Part shown: positions 4,275 to 34,027 of the stretch, one piece after another
How positions within the stretch are numbered: position 1 is the first letter of the stretch
Layout of the letters: each line of letters begins with the position of its first letter
Source: Saccoglossus kowalevskii
Lineage: Eukaryota; Hemichordata; Enteropneusta; Harrimaniidae
Reading direction: 5' to 3'
Assembly (NCBI RefSeq): GCF_000003605.2
Contig: NW_003133371.1
Location: 61,353 to 95,554 of the forward strand
DNA length: 34,202 bases
Made by a program: the position numbers and the translations under genes
The notes under the pieces: model-generated
Databases searched by the model: none
Told to the model about the DNA's origin: nothing
Seen by the model: only the letters and a program-made list of their open reading frames with translations

Positions 4275-4566
4275 TTAAAGCGCGGTAGTCGTCGCGCTGC
4301 GCATGTGCGACATTTGTGATGATAAACATTGATTTTCCCACAATTTAATGCGTTCTTCAAATGGAAATCACAAGTATGAGGTTTGACCTGGGCGCGACTT
4401 GCACTGATTACCGACGGTGACTCCTTCCAATCACATGAAAATTGCCTAATTAAAGCTTGGAAACGTCTCAGTTAGTTGATCTGCGCAACAGTCAAAGTCG
4501 CCATCTTTGTTTATATGAGACCCATATATCTCGCACATGCGCAGCGCGACGACTACCGCGCTTTAA
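4275..4566. mobile_element. TTAA-flanked MITE, 284 bp, perfect 32-bp terminal inverted repeats
   Basis: The left end at 4275-4310 and the right end at 4531-4566 are perfect reverse complements over 36 bases. The outermost four bases on each side are TTAA, the target duplication made by piggyBac and Kolobok transposases. The element proper is then 4279-4562, starting AGCGCGGTAGTCG. The interior codes for nothing, so this is a nonautonomous element. The ends do not start with the CCC typical of piggyBac, so Kolobok-like or unclassified fits better. A YY1-like motif lies inside (4497-4509, minus strand). The perfect arms suggest fairly recent activity. Confidence 0.85.
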
Positions 4567-5756
4567 CTTTTCAATGCACGCAATCTGGTTGAAATGATTG
4601 TGCGAAGTTTTAAGATCGTATTCCTGGCACTGACCAGCTGATTGATTGAGTGTTGTGGATGTGGATAATTTCCATAGCTCTGTCCGTAGTTTTGTATAAT
4701 ATTCAATTTCATGTGTATTCCACATTGTTTACATCACGGTGTTTATTTTCTACACGTATCTTCTTTGTGACGCGTCACTTCATTGAATGGCGGATTGATT
4801 CTTATCATGACTGTGAATAACAACCGAACTTCTTTCCAAGCCGAGAGTTATTAAATGTCTCAGGCTGGCGACAAATGTGATGTTTCAGTTTCAAAAAATC
4901 GTTGTCTCATATTTCGGTTGTAAATCTTTTGGGGGTAGTGGATTTTTTTCAATACATTTTATTTATGAATGTAATTTTGTATTAAAAACAATACGTACTG
5001 ACGATGGAATTGGAAGATGCATTATCGCACTATGAAAGTTTTGTTTTTATTTTAATTTATTAACAAAAATAAATATAATGGATTCATTTGTTTTCTTCAA
5101 TTTGTTCTGATATAAATTAAGGTTATGTATAGAAAGCATTGTTCACTGTGATATATGGTTAGGTGGCGTGTGTGTGACCTGGTTTGATTACCAGAAAGTA
5201 TGTCCCTGGCCCACAACTGACCAAAAAACTGGGAAAATCGACGAGTGAAACAAAATAATGTGTTTTACTCAAAACGAGCTTCGATTCCGTAAATCATCAT
5301 TGGTAAGACAACATTGCTATTTCTGGTTACCATCATGATGTCTGTCTATTCTATTACATATCTCAATCTAAATATTAACATTCAGGTCCCGGAGTGGGGC
5401 AGTTATGGTTGTGCCTTTTTGTTATGCAACACAAAATACTAAAAGCCTGTTTCACATTTAATGTGCATAAGACCTGCCCAATTTAACTGTTTTTGTTTGT
5501 TGAATAAAAAAGATTTGATTCGCTTTCACACAGTCAAGACGTCGTGGATTTACTTAAAGCGCCCTCTTTTCTTTGGAATACAGATTTAGCTACATCAGAT
5601 ATGTCCAAGATGGCGGCCTCGACGTGTTCTTTCTCCTCGAAGTTTGTCTGTATTTTCGTAACAAATCTCGACGAAGACGTAATTTGCATCATCGTTCTGA
5701 AGTTCTCCCAACTAATTAGAGTGGTGGAGAGTGGGCACAACATCTGTTCAATTTGA
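4567..5756. other. Intergenic stretch with two regulatory-looking motifs
   Basis: No gene recognised. Overlapping open frames on both strands at 5534-5756 have no known domain. AGCGCCCTCT is at 5558-5567 and CAAGATGGCGGCC at 5606-5618. Confidence 0.5.
5606..5618 (+). promoter_or_regulatory. YY1-like motif
   Basis: CAAGATGGCGGCC matches the known YY1 core AAGATGGCGGC. The same 13-mer recurs at 8917-8929. No transcription start is identified nearby. Confidence 0.35.
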
Positions 5757-5870
5757 TTAGCTCGGGCTAAGCACCCAAAACGCTAACGTTAGTACCTTCC
5801 ATGGTTAAAAGTACCACATTACTGAAGATTCGTACATTTTAACGTTTGGGCATTCCTTAGCCCGTGCTAA
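5757..5870. repeat. 114-bp inverted repeat, MITE-like
   Basis: The arms at 5757-5771 (TTAGCTCGGGCTAAG) and 5856-5870 are reverse complements with one mismatch. Looser pairing continues inward through ACCCAAAACG / CGTTTGGG. TA flanks GC at each end, compatible with a TA target site (Tc1/mariner-type), but this is weak. A further partial copy of the right arm lies at 5919-5932. Confidence 0.55.
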
Positions 5871-7618
5871 CTGTTGTTCTCTCCCGTGCATTAACGCAAT
5901 GGCCGATATGCAAATATACTTAGCCCGTACTTGATGTACCCTGTGAACACGACTATCGGTGTTTGATCTTAATTATTAAACTGAGTAACAGATCGTCGTA
6001 TGTATGGGTCTATTTCAAGGCGTACGTGAGTGTTATGTTGGTGATTAATTTCCTTCACAATTATACTTATTATAATGCTTGGGGATATTCTTACTGCTAT
6101 TTTTATTTTATTTTTGTTATTGCCGTTCATTACTATATTTTCATTTATCCCATTTATATTTCCATTTGCTGATTTGTATTTCAAAGTTTTTTTTTAGTTT
6201 TGTGGGTTTTTTCATTTTACTTGTCATTTTCATATTTTATTGTCGTTCATTATTATTAACAAAAAGTTTCTATTATGTTTTTATTTATCTTTTTATATTT
6301 TCATTAATGAGCGTTCTAAATGATTAATTTCTACAAGTTTAGTGTAGCCGATAAGGCAGTAGGCAACCAGAATTGGTGGAATCACGGTGGTTGTGGTCGC
6401 TTTGCTGAACAAGGACCAGAACGTCGACATTGCAAGGTGGCACAGCGTTAAAGATCACCTGTCTCGATGAGACATCCATTCTATCAATTGTCCTGTTTGC
6501 AATTGATGTTTCTAAGACGGCTGAGAAATAGCTAGAATCCATGTTAGAAGTAAAGCATTATCGAATTTTTACGATAACAATCCGCGCGTTAAGTTGTGGT
6601 CACCATTTCGTCATGCGAATCACTTTCCCAAACCGTGTACTTTAAATTGCAATTTTCTACAAAATCGCTAAAATTGACCTTTTAAGGTTAAGACTTTGGA
6701 TGATCCATATCTTAAACTAATTTCTCAGTGCATTCACGAATGGTATACATATACTAATTAATTCCGCTCTATGGCGATTGTAATAACGTTTAGTTCAATT
6801 TCACTGAATTGATTTATGACGTCATACATATTGGTAGAATACCTCACAAGTGAACTTATAATGCCATATTCATCATTAAACAGGTACAACATTTTCCATT
6901 ATTATACCATGACAGCCAATCAGATATTACAGATGACATATTCGTGAGTCGACCTGCTGCCATATTCGTATGTCTACCTCCATCCGAGTATCTTTACCTG
7001 ATTTATGTCAATAATTTGTCAGGAGAACACGATACGCGGCAATATTCGAGAACTGATTGGTTTGCCAGGTTTACGTTCATTATTTGACTATCTTACTAAA
7101 AAAATTCGATTTTGTAGCGATTTCGCGTCAAGCTTGCCTTCGATCTGCGATTGCGTAGTTCGTCTACCTAAATAATCTACGAGCCGTGGGCTTTGCCGTG
7201 CGACGAAACCGTTTTGTTTGATTTTGTTCCATATTTGTGTGTGTTTTGACAGTATGTCGACATATTATGTACAGTGTATTTGTTGAAATAGAATGGTGTT
7301 GACATAAACCTATACTGAATCAGTGTGCAGCTCGATTCAATGTTCTTATGCGAACTGGAACGCAGTATAGCCTGTAGCTGGACATATGATGGCGCTGGAT
7401 GTGTTTGTAAAAAATCAATTCTTCGCCAGGCTGAAGCTGTTGAAATTAGGTTTATCAAAACAACCATGAAAGTAAAAAGGCGTCCATGATAAAACTCAAT
7501 AAAATGCAACTTGTATATTTCTGTTCATACATGCATTCAGCTCTACGAGCGTGACCTGGAAGATTGCCATGATTGAGTGCCACAATTTCTGTTTAATTAT
7601 TCGGTATTATACTAGTAA
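5871..7618. other. Intergenic, includes a T-rich low-complexity block
   Basis: 6080-6330 is very T-rich, with an imperfect 120-base periodic duplication (TATTGCCGTTCATTACTAT at 6118 recurring as TATTGTCGTTCATTATTAT near 6238). No gene recognised. Confidence 0.5.
6817..6824. promoter_or_regulatory. Perfect CRE palindrome TGACGTCA
   Basis: An exact match to the CREB/ATF site. A second exact match is at 21254-21261. Neither sits by an identified promoter, so function is unproven. Confidence 0.25.
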
Positions 7619-7666
7619 TACAAATCACAGTCCCTCGACACCGGTGTTGAGGGACTGTGTACAAAT
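7619..7666. mobile_element. 34-bp palindromic insertion, copy 1, with 7-bp target duplication
   Basis: The unit at 7626-7659 starts CACAGTCCCTC and ends with its reverse complement GAGGGACTGTG. The centre ACACCGGTGT is fully palindromic. Only one base pair of the 17 is mismatched. The unit is bracketed by the direct repeats TACAAAT at 7619-7625 and 7660-7666. It has 21 G/C of 34, in AT-rich surroundings. It is too short to encode anything. A second copy with different flanks lies at 33677-33724. Confidence 0.85.
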
Positions 7667-9994
7667 GTACAAACGCTTCGCCTAGGTTGACAATGAGCTC
7701 TTCGGGTCACTAAAACTGTATGTCCACCTCTGTCGGGGTGAACATTTGTATAATGGTAGTCTTAGGAGAAGTTTCAACCTTTTTTCCATGTGTATTCTTA
7801 GTTTAGTTTAATCTGTCACCGAAGGGAGATTACTGTTGGTCATTTCCTTATATGGCATGTCTCCTTATATGGAATTTCCAATCAAATCACAGCATGCGGA
7901 TCAGGTGATCATGCACACCTAACTACGTGTATAAAATCAGTATATTCTGGTCACGTATATATGTGTGATAGTGTAAAGTTGCAATACAACACCAGACGTC
8001 GGTATGAACATGATAAAATTGCTATTGGCAATTACTGGTATTTTATACACAATTCTATGTGTCAGATTCTGTATAATTTCACTTTGTCAACAAAAGTAAA
8101 AAAAGATGTTTGTTTTTTTTCTAATTTGTATGAAATACACTAAATAGCGCATGGATGGATACGAATTTTGATTTAATGGTTTTGGAATTGAAATGCCGAG
8201 CCTATAGTGAAATGTGTGCTTTCTACGCCACCGCATTAGGTAATCATGATAATTATAATACTGTCAAAATCAATACACGTATATCGTGTCATAGCTATGC
8301 AAATGTCAGATTACTCGAAGCGATTCAAATTTAGTGTGTGTATTTTTTGCGCTATTTTGTACTGATCGTATTTGTTATATTGATGAAGATGATGATTGTA
8401 GTAATCTGTCTGAATAACTGGGTTCCGGTTATAGAAGAGTTATTGTCTGAAAAGGTAAATATGTATAATTGTGAATGACACCAGCGTACGTCAATGAGTT
8501 AGTCAACTCTCTACGCTCCGGAGTTACAAAGAACGGAGTTCTTTCCAAGCATACTGCTGTTGATGTTTCCTTGCTCCATCGGTCGAGAACCCCCCCCCCC
8601 TCCCAGGGTATGTCCCTGTTCTGTTCCTTGTCATTCATCCCAGCAGCCAATCAGCGACGGGCTCACAGTTAGATGACGATTTCGGTTTCAAATACCCCCG
8701 GGAAAGTGTTCTATGTTCTTAGTGTAATTAGGTGTTCGTATTTGAGGGATTTTTCCATACAAAAATGCCGAATTCGGTCGAATTTTGTTATCGGTTGGCT
8801 TAATATTACCCCCAACGGATCGTATTTCTGTGAAAGATTGGCATTTTTGTCCAGATTTGTAGGAATCTGAAAAACGCGTTTCTCAACTTGTCTCTTATTT
8901 AGTTTTATGCTGCATTCAAGATGGCGGCCCCCATATAGTAAACGTATTTATTTAATTATCACGTGTGCGCCAACTGACTGTGTTTTTACCCTGGGTAAAT
9001 GGGCTACAAGTATAAGCTTGCAGCTGTCGCCTGACTCAAAAATAAATTTTGTTTTAAAGAAAAGAGTTTATAATAAAAATTGTTTCCTTAAAATAGATTG
9101 CCTAGCAAAATGATGTGTTATATAGGTTGACACTCATTTTTCTTGTGAAACCATTACATCGAGATTCGAGTCTGTAGGCTGTTAATAGAGTGAAAAGATG
9201 TATCGAATATGCATTCACGGCGTCACGTCTGTTTCTGTGCATGTTATTTCAATAGTGTAATTTTATCAAAATGAACATGTGCTCGGTAATCTACACAGCC
9301 AGTGAAAGCTCTTTGCAATTATTTTCTGTATTATTCATGGAAAGGCTGATCGAAATTAAAGAAAACGTCTCCACTTTGGTTACTATGGAAACATCAGAAT
9401 CGGTACAAGGACATAGTTTATCAGCGATGATGGCAAACTGATATCGATAAGATGGCAGATGTTCCCAGACAGACAAGTCTGTCGCATTAAATATTATTTT
9501 ATATTGAAACCCAATTATGGATTGTTTTAGTTTTAACTATTCAGACAGTTTTATGCTATCCCATGGTGACCTTACGAATGATATGTGTACTGTGTGGTAC
9601 GTCGATGCCAAGTGATCGGCGTTCGCAAATAGGGAACACGCCAATGTTTAGTGTATACACAGGTAACAATTACAAATATACCGCTATTCCACAGTTGTTT
9701 TTAATTCTACCCATATATTACGTTGAACACAGAGGCGATGTTCACGCTATTAGTCTTGAATCCGAGAACTCTACACGAATCGCGTTGTGTGAAGAAATGT
9801 TGACGCGTAAACAGATACAACATGAGTAAATTTGTAAGGGTAATTTGTGAGGAAACTTCGCTTTTACTTATGTTAATAGTATGCAAAATATTTAGAAATT
9901 GCTTTGGTTCATCCAGCTGTATATTATATGTGCTTTCCGCATCTTATTAGCAATTTACCAGTGTGTATTCATTATGACTTGGTCACATGGGTCA
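7667..9994. other. Intergenic stretch, no confident gene
   Basis: Short open frames (for example 8475-8672, and 9563-9829 on the plus strand) have no recognisable domain. There is a C-run at 8590-8600 and a YY1-like motif at 8917-8929. Confidence 0.5.
8917..8929 (+). promoter_or_regulatory. YY1-like motif
   Basis: CAAGATGGCGGCC, identical over 13 bases to the motif at 5606-5618. No associated gene start found. Confidence 0.35.
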
Positions 9995-10050
9995 GTGTGA
10001 CCTCAGACTAGTAATACAAGTAATACAATATTACTAGTCTGAGGTGTGAC
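9995..10050. mobile_element. 42-bp palindromic insertion with 7-bp direct repeats
   Basis: The unit at 10002-10043 has perfect 14-base arms, starting CTCAGACTAGTAAT, around a 14-base centre. It is flanked by GTGTGAC at 9995-10001 and 10044-10050. Taking one base fewer on the left gives an 8-bp repeat (GTGTGACC, to 10002 and 10051), so the exact boundary is ambiguous. The interior holds GTAATACAA twice in tandem. It is noncoding. The size and duplication length resemble the 34-bp unit at 7626-7659, though the sequence is different. Confidence 0.65.
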
Positions 10051-13690: not shown

Positions 13691-13934
13691 ATTAAAAAAC
13701 AGTTATAAATAAATAGTGCTAACGAGTTAATGATTTGGCTTTTAGAGGAGCTTAATACTTGTACTAGGGTATTCAAATTTGGGGGTTNNNNNNNNNNNNN
13801 NNNNNNNNNNNNNNNNNNNNNNNNNNNNNNNNNNNNNATTAAAAAACAGTTATAAATAAATAGTGCTAACGAGTTAATGATTTGGCTTTTAGAGGAGCTT
13901 AATACTTGTACTAGGGTATTCAAATTTGGGGGTT
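13691..13934. repeat. 97-bp perfect duplication flanking the assembly gap
   Basis: 13691-13787 and 13838-13934 are identical and immediately flank the N-run. Both fall in the C-terminal part of the LINE, where one copy is enough to complete the protein, so this is most likely a scaffolding artefact. Confidence 0.85.
13788..13837. other. Assembly gap, 50 N
   Basis: A run of exactly 50 N, a conventional placeholder length. See the flanking duplication. Confidence 0.99.
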
Positions 13935-16900
13935 GTGTCTTATTTGGGAGATACTTTTTCCTGATTGTGTTCCATGCAGTGCATTTTATTAAAAAAATAT
14001 ATTCATCATCAATTTCTGCAGGCACAAATGACAAATACGGCCCTCCCTAGGGATATTATTATGTCTGCCTCTTTCTATTTCCAAGGGGTGGCACGCATAT
14101 CTTAATCTTGCTATTGCTCTGCGCAATTTTAATTGCTGCAATGACACATAGTTTTCAATCCCAAATTTTGTTTTGTATTGCCTATAATACTGCGTTTTTT
14201 CTCCAGAACAAATGTCTATATACCATTCTGTAAATCCAATATCCTTGATACGTTCACAATATTTGTACAAGAACATATCAGAGTCCCCCAACCCTTGATT
14301 AAACCAGACATAGCCAAATACATATTAAAATAGCAATTCTTTCATTTCTGTGGCCCCTGACTTTTGTCTTTTTTGTCCAGTGAAAGCAGCAGCATCCATG
14401 CTAGTAATCTTTTAACATGGTAACAAAATAAGGCTAGCTTCCCACAATCCCCTAATACTGTACAAGTTGAAGCATGTTTACCTACACCGAAGTATTGCCT
14501 ACAGTAAGATGTATGTACACTTTCTAAATGTTGATATTGACCATATCCCCAGATTTCAGACCCATATGTAAGTACTGGTTGAATTAATGTGTCAAAAATC
14601 TTAAAATACAAGTCTGCTTTAAAACATTGCATATTTCCTAAGTATCTTTTGATTGCAATCAGTTTCTCTTTGCCTTTTGTAGCTGAATTTTCTGTAGTAA
14701 TATTAAAAGAGCATTTACATGACATTGCCAAGCCCAGGTATTCGTATGAACTAACAGTACTAATTTGCTTGTCCTCGAAATACCACTTTTCATATTTACT
14801 GAGATATCCCCCATTTCTGTATACTACAATTTTAGTTTTATTTAAATTGATATTTAGATCCCACTTATTTGTAAACGCATGCAATATACTTATTAGTATT
14901 TTTAAGCCCAATACAGAATTTGAAAATAAAGCAATGTCGTCAGCATACAATAATACAATACAATACTCCAACGTTGTTCTAGTGGAAAGAATACGGTTAT
15001 TTTTTCTGGAAGTGTATTCACATATAAAATGAAATTCGAGTCTGATTAAATTATTTCGTTTTTCAGAGTTGTGTTTTAAATGCTTCGTCACTATTACAGA
15101 ACTGTACAGTGTCGTTATTCATTATTTTAACAGAAAGTATGAGAACATTAAAGCAGTCGAGAAATATATTTTTGAAGATCAAGTCTAATATCAAAAACAG
15201 AAATATATCATGACAATGATTAGTGTTCCAATAATGTTGAAATTGAAACGAATCATTGTTGAGATGCAGGAATAACCCCGTCGTGTCATACTTCGAGTTG
15301 GAAATAAGTACAATAACCGACACATAAGTTCGTTCAATTGACAGAAATGCGAGCGTGCATCGATAACAACAGAATTGAATCCGCCATGCATAAAATAACA
15401 GTTCTTAGCGGTTCTGCACCGCGAAGCGAATTAACGGGATTAAGTTGTTCAGATTCTGGTTAACTGAATTATGCTACGATTTATTCAGGAAACGGAATCA
15501 TCACATACGCTGAATTTATGTTTACTGCGCACCGAACATTCTGTTGCAAACCACATTGACCGAAAATCGGAAAACCATGGCAAACAAGATGATTTGTTTT
15601 GAATATTCATATCAACGTCATAGGGTGAGGGCGCTGATCATTTGCTTCGAGTTGCGCATACTATGAACCCTTGAACCTTTTTATTTTTTTATTTTTTTTC
15701 TTCAAATAAGATTATCAACACAAAATAGAAATAAATTCTAGACTTCTAAAAATGTCAAAATATTACGATGTTTGGTAAATACACAATTACACAGAATTAA
15801 TGTATATTTTCATAAATGAGCTAGTAGTACATTGAGAAAATCAAGAAAAATAACATTTGGGTGAAATGTAAAAGGAAATTTAATAAGAAACTACACGGTT
15901 AGAGACAGGCGTGGGAATTTAACCTCCGCGTGAATAGACATCGCGTTTCACGCCGAAAACACCTGGGGGTAAACACTGAAAGAACACGATAAGTGGAAGA
16001 CTGTCTGAAGATATGACGTAACGCTAATGAACACCCATGACTTAAGGCGGAGATTGCGGTATGCCTTTTAATCTCGTAATTCCATGCTACATTTACGTTT
16101 ATGTTCGGTGGTTTGTAAAAAACCTGTAGATGAAGAGCGGATTGCAGACATTCATGGTGCCGTCAAGCAGCAAGCAATTAGCTCATTACCCGCGTTACGG
16201 GCTACTCAGAAAGCGTTGCCAAGCATTCAGTACGATGAGTCCGTGCTGTAGTATTGGCGCCACTGACATTTAGATTAATAATCCCAGTACAGACCTGGAA
16301 GCGATACTGAAAATAAATTAAGGTGGCACGTAGGGTAAAAATGATATGATTTTCTTATATTATATAACAGTGTTTAGGTACGAATTAATGAAAAAATTGA
16401 AGTGCAGCTTTCAGCGGAAAAAGTAAGTGTCGGTTTTAAAGGTATTTTACCGCTGCTTCATAAGAAGTGTCATCCTCGTTCGGTGACAATGTCATTATGA
16501 GCGGTTTATGTTCATTGAATGGACACTCGTGCACACAACATTCCAAGCATCTCTGGTATTGATCTGGAATAGTATTGTAACGGTCTGTTATTGATATGCA
16601 ATAACACTTTATATGTTAGTATGTTAATTACCTTGCCCAAACATTCCAACATAATTGCTAAACTTCTATTTTTATACCCAAATATACATGTACCGTTATT
16701 TATTGCTTTTGTGACAATTTAAATCGGAGTCAGTAGGTCAATCTAGAAAACGGATATGGGAACGCTAACAAAAAAAATGTCTACTATTTTAAATCAAATC
16801 GCAAAATATTACAGTCGTCAAATCTCAGCCAATCCGCGGTATACACGTGTCAATCATTCATCAAAATTGCTTGCACTAAATGTGTAAAATATACGAGAAA

Positions 16901-22915: not shown

Positions 22916-23080
22916 TTAAAGCGGGGGAGTCGACACCTGCGCATGCGTCAGACGGCCATAGCATGTCATTGTTTACAAACAAGCGTCTGCCCATGATTCT
23001 TTGCGTTTTTAGCGCGTGTTGCTATCGTCGCTTGGGACTCAATTCCCGCGCGTGCGCAGGTGACGACCTTCCCGATTCAA
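22916..23080. mobile_element. Diverged TTAA MITE related to the element at 4275-4566
   Basis: The left end (TTAA, then AGCGGGGGAGTCGACACC, then TGCGCATGCG) and the reverse complement of the right end match at about 25 of 32 positions. The right target copy has decayed to TCAA. The left end also aligns with the TIR at 4275 (TTAAAGCG, then GG, AGTCG, and TGCGCATG after a one-base gap), so both belong to one family. The interior (about 157 bp in total) is noncoding and unlike the other element's. Confidence 0.65.
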
Positions 23081-32955: not shown

Positions 32956-34027
32956 CTGGAAAAAAAATGTACAAACCTGAGTTTGTGGAGTGGTGTGCAT
33001 TTCTACCGTACTTATCCGGGTAAGAGCCCATGCCTGGACAAACGCCCACCCCCCACTTTTGACACAATAAAGAAGTTGAGGTCATATCCGGGCACGCCCA
33101 GAGGGTCTTTTTCTATACAAAACAAAAAAAAATATTTTCTATTTGTTGACTGTGGTTGTATTAACTGTTGACTGTCTTGAAGTCTGTCGTTAAAATTGTT
33201 AATTGCGTAAAACAAGGGGTGAACGCAAAATAGCTGTGACAGCTTTCTGGCTTCAGGGCAGCGCGTTCACCGCTGATTTTTTTCAGAATCATAACAGTCA
33301 GGAAGTCTATAAAAATAAATATTAAAGCAGAAATGGTAGTTCTCTTTTTGAAATATGTCATGGCCGTAAAAAGGACTGTTTGGTGTGTGCTTCCTTAGAA
33401 ACGATTCAAGCAAATCGTACAAGGAGAGCCACTAAGCAAGTGTCTCACTCATTCGGCTTTAGCGTCATCGACAATGAAAAAATGATGCAATATTGTAGCA
33501 ACCCGTACCTGGCAGAATGGTTGAAACCACTCTGTTTTTTTGGCTTTATAAATAATTTGTAGCAGCTTGTGAATCCATAACTGGGGCCAGCAATTTTGCA
33601 ATGTCACGCCGAAGACTGCCAACTTTTTTACAATCTTTTATCACCACTATTGCATTTCTGTCATGAAAACTATTCCTTCTGTTCACAGTCCCTCAACACC
33701 GGTATTGAGGGACTGTGTTCTGTTGTTGGATAAAAAAAAACTTCCTATTTCAAGTCCACCGCGATATCCATATAGCGAGACATTTCAACTGCCGGAACTT
33801 GCTGAATAATGACTTTCACAGTGATTAATAAGCGTCGAGTCTGAAGAAAGCAATGTCACGATTTGACCTTTATGATGAAATCCTAGTAGTTGATGTCATT
33901 CTTAGCCAATCAGTAAAGCAGATGCATAAAGGTCAAAAATGATTGCTAGATTGTAAACAAAATCATCTTGTGCCATCGCAGCAGAGCGACCCCATTTTTC
34001 TTGTCTCTTTATTATGATTAGACATGA
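32956..34027. other. Upstream region of the kinase gene
   Basis: It should hold the missing 5' exon(s) or promoter of the kinase if these lie in the window, but no exon is convincing. It contains the second 34-bp palindrome, and a 9-base-arm hairpin at 33218-33271 (GGTGAACGC / GCGTTCACC). Confidence 0.45.
33677..33724. mobile_element. 34-bp palindromic insertion, copy 2, with 7-bp target duplication
   Basis: The unit at 33684-33717 differs from copy 1 (7626-7659) at two of 34 positions (12 and 21). It is flanked by the direct repeats TTCTGTT at 33677-33683 and 33718-33724. The flanks differ from those of copy 1, so the two copies are independent insertions and not a segmental duplication. 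Confidence 0.88.

Follow-up and report, generated by a model that had tools for sequence, protein, structure and literature searches.

The stretch of DNA analyzed here (hereafter the window) measures 34,202 nucleotides and corresponds to C2527:61353-95554 of a Saccoglossus kowalevskii assembly of 572 Mb in 4830 contigs. It is animal DNA, with a rhodopsin-type receptor in one open frame, protein kinase exons and a piece of reverse transcriptase. The latter fragment (14342-15118, minus strand; PF00078) belongs by eye to a non-LTR element. An exact 97-bp repeat (13691-13787 and 13838-13934) flanks a run of N and is probably an assembly overlap at a scaffold gap. RNA families (Rfam) and tRNAs were sought in the window, which holds both palindromes described below, and none was found.

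Two 34-bp palindromes with perfect 7-bp flanks are present, as the initial annotation of the window had reported. Copy 1 (7626-7659) is composed of two 17-base arms, namely CACAGTCCCTCGACACC on the plus strand (7626-7642) and GGTGTTGAGGGACTGTG (7643-7659), which reads CACAGTCCCTCAACACC on the minus strand; the arms match in 16 of 17 pairs, and the window sequence shows TACAAAT on either side (7619-7625 and 7660-7666). Copy 2 (33684-33717, plus strand), identified from the window and the genome search, reads CACAGTCCCTCAACACC|GGTATTGAGGGACTGTG and lies between two copies of TTCTGTT (33677-33683 and 33718-33724). When the window was searched with the 34-mer pattern allowing ≤ 3 mismatches, only these two copies were retrieved, and 100 shuffles of the window yielded 0. 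Identical flanking 7-mers surround 8 of the 34,154 possible 34-bp stretches of the window, copies 1 and 2 included. Copy 1 is located within an older interspersed repeat (7560-7720, plus strand), as its flanks match other copies of that repeat, several of which have their two halves in opposite orientations.

In the whole genome (572 Mb), the 34-mer was found at 29 places with ≤ 3 mismatches, whereas the reversed control gave no match. The gapped pattern CACAGTCCCTC-N(0-30)-GAGGGACTGTG, which fixes 11-bp ends, leaves the inner bases free and allows unit lengths up to 52 bp, retrieved 318 units (control 0), many of which belong to a second family (family B). Fifty places of this pattern were listed, giving 49 units after the nested C310 was merged, and among these listed matches 42 of 49 measured ≤ 34 bp. 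The 17-base arm of the window palindromes (family A) occurs with ≤ 1 mismatch at 376 genome places (control 1). The absence of a loop, which the initial annotation had emphasized, holds for the 34-mers and not in general, since related units are approximately 20 to 60 bp long and have variable centers. Sampling of twenty 10-kb stretches, which together comprise about 135 kb of called bases, yielded one unit (L017).

Viral contigs were without a match to either the 34-mer or the gapped pattern. The single gapped match in prokaryote contigs is a bacterial intergenic hairpin without a 7-bp repeat, upstream of an apparent ribosomal protein gene (judged by eye), and was taken as chance. This contig (L001) carries two Kaiserbacteria intergenic hairpins (152-196 and 1427-1473) with ACAGTCC near the start of both, of which one matched the gapped pattern. 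The string CACAGTCCCTC also occurs in the literature, where the titles suggest primers.

Few or no further copies, or copies without matching 7-bp flanks, would have refuted the initial annotation, and neither applies: besides the 29 places, an exact 7-bp flanking repeat was observed in 19 of 25 units of family A and related units whose ends had been fixed beforehand. The first five units (the two in the window, two in L006 and one in L017) all have one. For the 34-mers outside the window (27 places), 20 were fetched in addition to C3323, which had been fetched earlier; C1731, C1841, C1916, C2019, C4443 and C4461 (6 of the 29 places) were left out. Fourteen of these 20 have an exact 7-bp repeat, two match in 6 of 7 positions, L043 has an exact 8-bp repeat, and L035, L048 and L053 are without any.

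A total of 58 units was tabulated, leaving out seven of the 40 fetched arms that are solo arms without a second end (L057, L059, L060, L063, L065, L078 and L082) and the separately fetched stretches of family B and of a third family (family C). An exact 7-bp repeat is present in 44 of the 58; for most of the 33 units without ends fixed beforehand, the right end was located partly via the flanking repeat, a procedure that favors the detection of one. One unit has an exact 8-bp repeat, and exact repeats of 5, 6 or 9 bp are absent. Permutation of the right flanks across the 58 units gave a mean of 0.77 exact 7-bp repeats. The remaining 13 units lack an exact 7- or 8-bp repeat, five of them matching in 6 of 7 positions; the right ends of L069, L070, L080, L086 and L093, all without a flanking repeat, were placed by eye. 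The symmetrized target motif is TNN-GTTNAAC-NNA, with T at position -3 in 66 of 88 and T at positions 2 and 3 in 50 of 88.

The 17-base arm is also found at the ends of longer elements, where it forms the outer half of an inverted repeat of approximately 30 bp, CACAGTCCCTCAACACC|CGGTTRGGAAACG; at the inner boundary of the left arm of copy 1, these longer elements run on with CGGTTRGGAAACG. Forty exact arms were fetched. Thirty-one end at exactly base 17, one ends at base 18 (L071) and eight continue, seven of which enter the long-element sequence CGGTTRGG, with the second end absent from the stretch. In the eighth (L068), 45 bases of one end are joined to 14 bases of the other. Arm lengths between 18 and 45 are absent, and arms shorter than 17 bases were unsampled because the query required at least 17. 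Counted over the short or truncated family A units, the retained arm ends at 17 in 31 of 33, which points indirectly to an internal strand cut at that position.

Beyond base 17, the other end contributes at most 16 bases, and the flanking 7-mer then follows as a rule. Trimmed joins of this kind are 17+16 (L067), 17+15 (L061), 17+12 (L064), 17+8 (L088) and 17+4 (L055 and L079). Fillers that repeat adjacent bases were observed in L066, L071, L133 and in the window itself at 10002-10043, and the right arm of L071 keeps 19 bases, a retention beyond 17. In L072, a 17-base stub is joined to 150 bp of the other end, and an exact 7-bp repeat surrounds the whole 167 bp. Several 34-mers combine one standard arm with a divergent one, like the two ends of some long elements.

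The initial annotation had recommended a search for transposase-encoding elements of greater length that share these ends, and this search was successful. The approximately 30-bp repeat occurs at 66 genome places (control 0), and left and right repeats are identical at 25-30 of 30 positions in 11 pairs. Ten end pairs are located 0.9-1.5 kb apart, and their flanking 7-mers match in 7 of 7 positions in four pairs, 6 of 7 in five and 5 of 7 in one. A unit of 7942 bp (L094, at C1630) has two identical 30-bp ends and encodes a P-superfamily transposase. Its open reading frames match PF21787 (1.1e-27) and PF21789 (1.2e-6) above the cutoff and PF21788 just below it (6.7e-5; 23.7 versus 24.8 bits), domains that answer to the TNP-like RNase H, GTP-binding insertion and RNase H C-terminal parts of the P superfamily. 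The best PDB match of this transposase is the P transposase 6p5a, which is weak (E 0.0048). PF21787 has 13 matches in the genome, the best of them inside the repeat-bounded L094, and 0 in 14 control genomes; besides that at C1630, transposase copies lie at C2039 and C4066. No THAP domain was reported in the six of 18 listed L094 open reading frames that were scanned, and introns and decay could hide one. Matching flanks are absent at L094 (7.9 kb) and at a 9.4-kb pair (C1845), so neither is demonstrable as one intact insertion. We conclude that the parent transposon of the palindromes belongs to the P superfamily. L094 has two further open reading frames on the minus strand (5443-6498 and 7360-7710). 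A C2H2 zinc finger is encoded by one of them, whereas the other (351 aa) has no Pfam match, and L094 may thus contain another gene or an insertion nested within it.

Two other families show a similar organization. The family B arm is CACAGTCCCTCTATCAC, and CACAGTCCCTCTATCAY is found at 293 genome places (control 0). Twenty stretches were fetched, of which five (L119, L122, L124, L126 and L132) continue past base 17 as CGGTCTGG or close variants and L134 continues in a further variant. Eleven short units end at base 16-17, with an exact 7-bp repeat in six, a match in 6 of 7 positions in three and none in two. On inspection by eye, L115 and L129 could be assigned to neither class and were excluded from all counts. 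L119 and L129 are two ends of one unit, as are L128 and L134; the latter pair (C532:541895-542212) delimits a 318-bp unit with the exact 7-bp repeat ATTTCAC, in which a 17-base stub is joined to sequence reaching the other end.

The family C arm is CTCAGACTAGTAATACAA, and its first 15 bases occur at 611 genome places (control 2). Elements of approximately 1.1 kb continue as CAGACTCGCAACG or a close variant, at one end (L139) after a short insertion. Twelve of the 17 close pairs listed and four of the five listed pairs about 1.1 kb apart were fetched; exact 7-bp repeats surround 11 of the 12 short units, whose ends were fixed beforehand, and all four long pairs. In this family the wall lies at base 18, as no arm among 13 units exceeds 18 bases, and two units read 18+18 (or 17+2+17). 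In a by-eye alignment, the walls of families A and C are equidistant from the inner AACG of the repeat. The window contains one family C unit, a 42-bp imperfect palindrome beginning CTCAGACTAG (10002-10043, plus strand), which is composed of CTCAGACTAGTAATACAA, the filler GTAATACAA that repeats adjacent bases, and TATTACTAGTCTGAG. It is flanked by GTGTGAC (9995-10001 and 10044-10050), and the C that follows position 10050 equals the first base of the unit, making an 8-bp duplication possible.

Certain junctions recur. Four of the 12 short family C units (L143, L145, L146 and L147) are the identical 34-mer CTCAGACTAGTAATACT|AGTATTACTAGTCTGAG; they lie at unrelated sites, and every copy is flanked by a 7-bp duplication of its own. 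No long element with the arm CTCAGACTAGTAATACT was encountered. In family B, C52, C170 and C184 share one 33-mer, and C262, C423 and C687 share one 31-mer.

We propose that the palindromes are scars left by end joining after the excision of P-superfamily transposons whose target duplications measure 7 bp, with a probability of about 0.90, lowered slightly from 0.92 on account of the recurrent junctions. The course of events would be as follows. A transposon with inverted repeats of approximately 30 bp inserts and duplicates 7 bp of its target, as is observed around the repeat pairs. The transposase would then cleave one strand exactly at the tip of the element and the opposite strand 17 bases further in (18 in family C), which would leave a 17-base single-stranded tail of the terminal repeat on each flank; the wall at base 17 points to this stagger, which has been described for the Drosophila P element. 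The flanks would be sealed by end joining that uses no homologous template, a step suggested by the observed product spectrum, with the repair enzymes presumed. When both tails are kept whole, the product would be target repeat, 17 bases, 17 bases and target repeat, i.e. the 34-bp palindrome; trimmed or microhomology-joined tails would give shorter scars and polymerase filler longer ones. Without the inner half of the repeat and all that lies beyond it, such a scar should be immobile. The lost transposon of copy 1 would have inserted into the older interspersed repeat at 7560-7720. We infer that an element was formerly present at each scar site, where its strands were cut and which enzymes carried out the repair; excision is likewise read from sequence alone, with no empty or filled allele of any scar site seen. 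Two suggestions of the initial annotation agree with this account: a DNA transposon does lie behind the 7-bp duplications, and the unit does consist of two abutting pieces of terminal repeat from between which everything has been lost.

The same annotation had also regarded the 34-mer as a complete mobile unit, and a mobile micro-element that is cut out and reinserted by a P-type transposase would explain several observations: near-identical 34-mers occur at numerous sites, and a separate 7-bp duplication surrounds most of them; identical non-trivial junctions are found at unrelated sites in families B and C; and the duplication TACAAAT is common to the window (7619-7625) and C3323 (L011), where the surroundings differ. 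The recurrent junctions fit repeated joining at microhomology, or a variant arm that underwent 17+17 joining, and a moving unit would produce them too. The preference for excision scars over a mobile unit follows from the deciding test, which is where the arm ends. The arms of three families end at base 17 or 18 of a repeat of approximately 30 bp, and in the 34-mer this is the position of the P-type internal cut, whereas a self-mobile micro-element or MITE requires the complete partner terminal repeat, which these units lack. The centers differ widely among copies in trimming and filler, neighboring units have joins with the trimming and filler that break repair should produce, and the mixed arms of several 34-mers mirror the unequal ends of some long elements. 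A 34-bp duplex would probably also be too stiff to pair its own ends, with the inner sequence absent. Mobility of the 34-mer is therefore improbable.

A still smaller probability is assigned to internal deletions of the P element that arise by interrupted gap repair from a sister copy instead of by the joining of tails. A few units have the expected appearance, namely L068 (45+14 bases), L072 (17-base stub and 150 bp) and the 318-bp unit at C532, but this route predicts variable lengths past 17, and 31 of 40 arms end at 17, while in L068 alone an extended portion of the sampled end is linked to a short piece of the other. Finally, it is very unlikely that the scars derive from another superfamily with 7-bp duplications. 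Such duplications are reported for hAT7 and Kyakuja in the available part of PMC12730594, and those of Dada are 6-7 bp (PMC3706591, in part). The transposase within the inverted repeats, however, matches P-type domains. A hAT domain was not reported in the six L094 open reading frames scanned, which contain P-type domains instead, and hAT7 was rejected. Kyakuja, with 7-bp duplications and CA..TG ends, was rejected because the families described in PMC12730594 are without terminal inverted repeats, whereas inverted repeats are present here and the transposase is P-type. Dada, which inserts in small RNA genes (PMC3706591) and is without terminal inverted repeats, was rejected as well, as 30-bp inverted repeats are present and the window has no tRNA or Rfam match. 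The 17-base stagger, moreover, is described as unusual to P in the accessible text of PMC7776569.

Excision scars of this form closely resemble what is known of the P element of Drosophila melanogaster. Its inverted repeats are of similar length (31 bp), and its transposase cuts 17 bp inside the repeat and leaves 17-nucleotide 3' extensions (PMC7776569, in the sections available). In fly excision products, too, up to 17 nt of each end lie between the two target repeats, with or without filler in the middle (PMC2895639, Table 1). The P element differs in its 8-bp target duplication, versus 7 bp here, and in its repeat sequence. That table derives from Rad51-less flies, and plain 17+17 joins, which are common here, appear in none of its rows. 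Galileo, a P-superfamily element of Drosophila, makes 7-bp and occasionally 8-bp duplications (PMC2775673, PMC4168063), so that the statement that seven fits no standard family has to be abandoned. Galileo also has a palindromic target motif, GTANTAC as against TNN-GTTNAAC-NNA here, but its repeats are long foldback repeats and not of approximately 30 bp; the passages available from these two papers make no mention of scars. The P-MITEs of Anopheles gambiae are non-autonomous and have ends in common with P elements, yet their lengths run to hundreds of bp and their duplications are 8 bp, whereas the units studied here are joined stubs without internal sequence (PMC1562414, in part). RAG-like elements have ends that begin with CAC, and a RAG-like or Transib reading was rejected on the basis of their 5-bp duplications (PMC7204232, in part) and the P-type transposase found here.

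The ends of CACTA and Transib elements begin with CAC as well. The target duplications of CACTA and Chapaev are 2-4 bp, and these elements differ from the present ones in that the transposase here is P-type. The RAG-like or Transib reading had been prompted by CACAGT, which resembles the RSS heptamer.

The 318 exact-ended units, which represent at least two families, far exceed the 13 matches to the transposase domain in number, and full 17+17 joins are frequent. As a plain 17+17 join demands that both non-complementary 3' tails become double-stranded, it is conceivable, at somewhat less than even odds, that two non-complementary 17-base 3' tails are regularly retained in the germline and made double-stranded before they are sealed. 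If true, this would imply a fill-in route not seen in fly products, for example one with a polymerase mu/lambda-like enzyme or polymerase alpha-primase. To our knowledge, flies are without family X polymerases such as mu and lambda, which may explain the missing 17+17 joins there. The genome would then also serve as a natural archive in which both the outcomes of end joining and the positions of transposase cuts could be counted; the latter would lie at 17 in two families and at 18 in the third, at the same distance from the inner motif.

Our results suggest that families of another animal, with target duplications of 7 bp, share the 17-base stagger established biochemically for the P element of flies. 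A literature search, with most subscription journals outside its reach, returned no report of genome-wide natural P-type scars and none of such ultrashort palindromic elements in the sources it partly covered. Read as scars, the palindromes would allow an assembly alone to show where a transposase cuts its own DNA and how many elements have departed versus remained, and the repair of breaks with long 3' tails would become measurable in an animal without laboratory genetics. A repeat finder could mistake these palindromes for miniature mobile elements, or overlook them. The window additionally contains two inverted-repeat elements (4275-4566 and 22916-23080) that begin alike (TTAAAGCG), have arms of 44 and 32 bp, and are possibly MITEs of another family.
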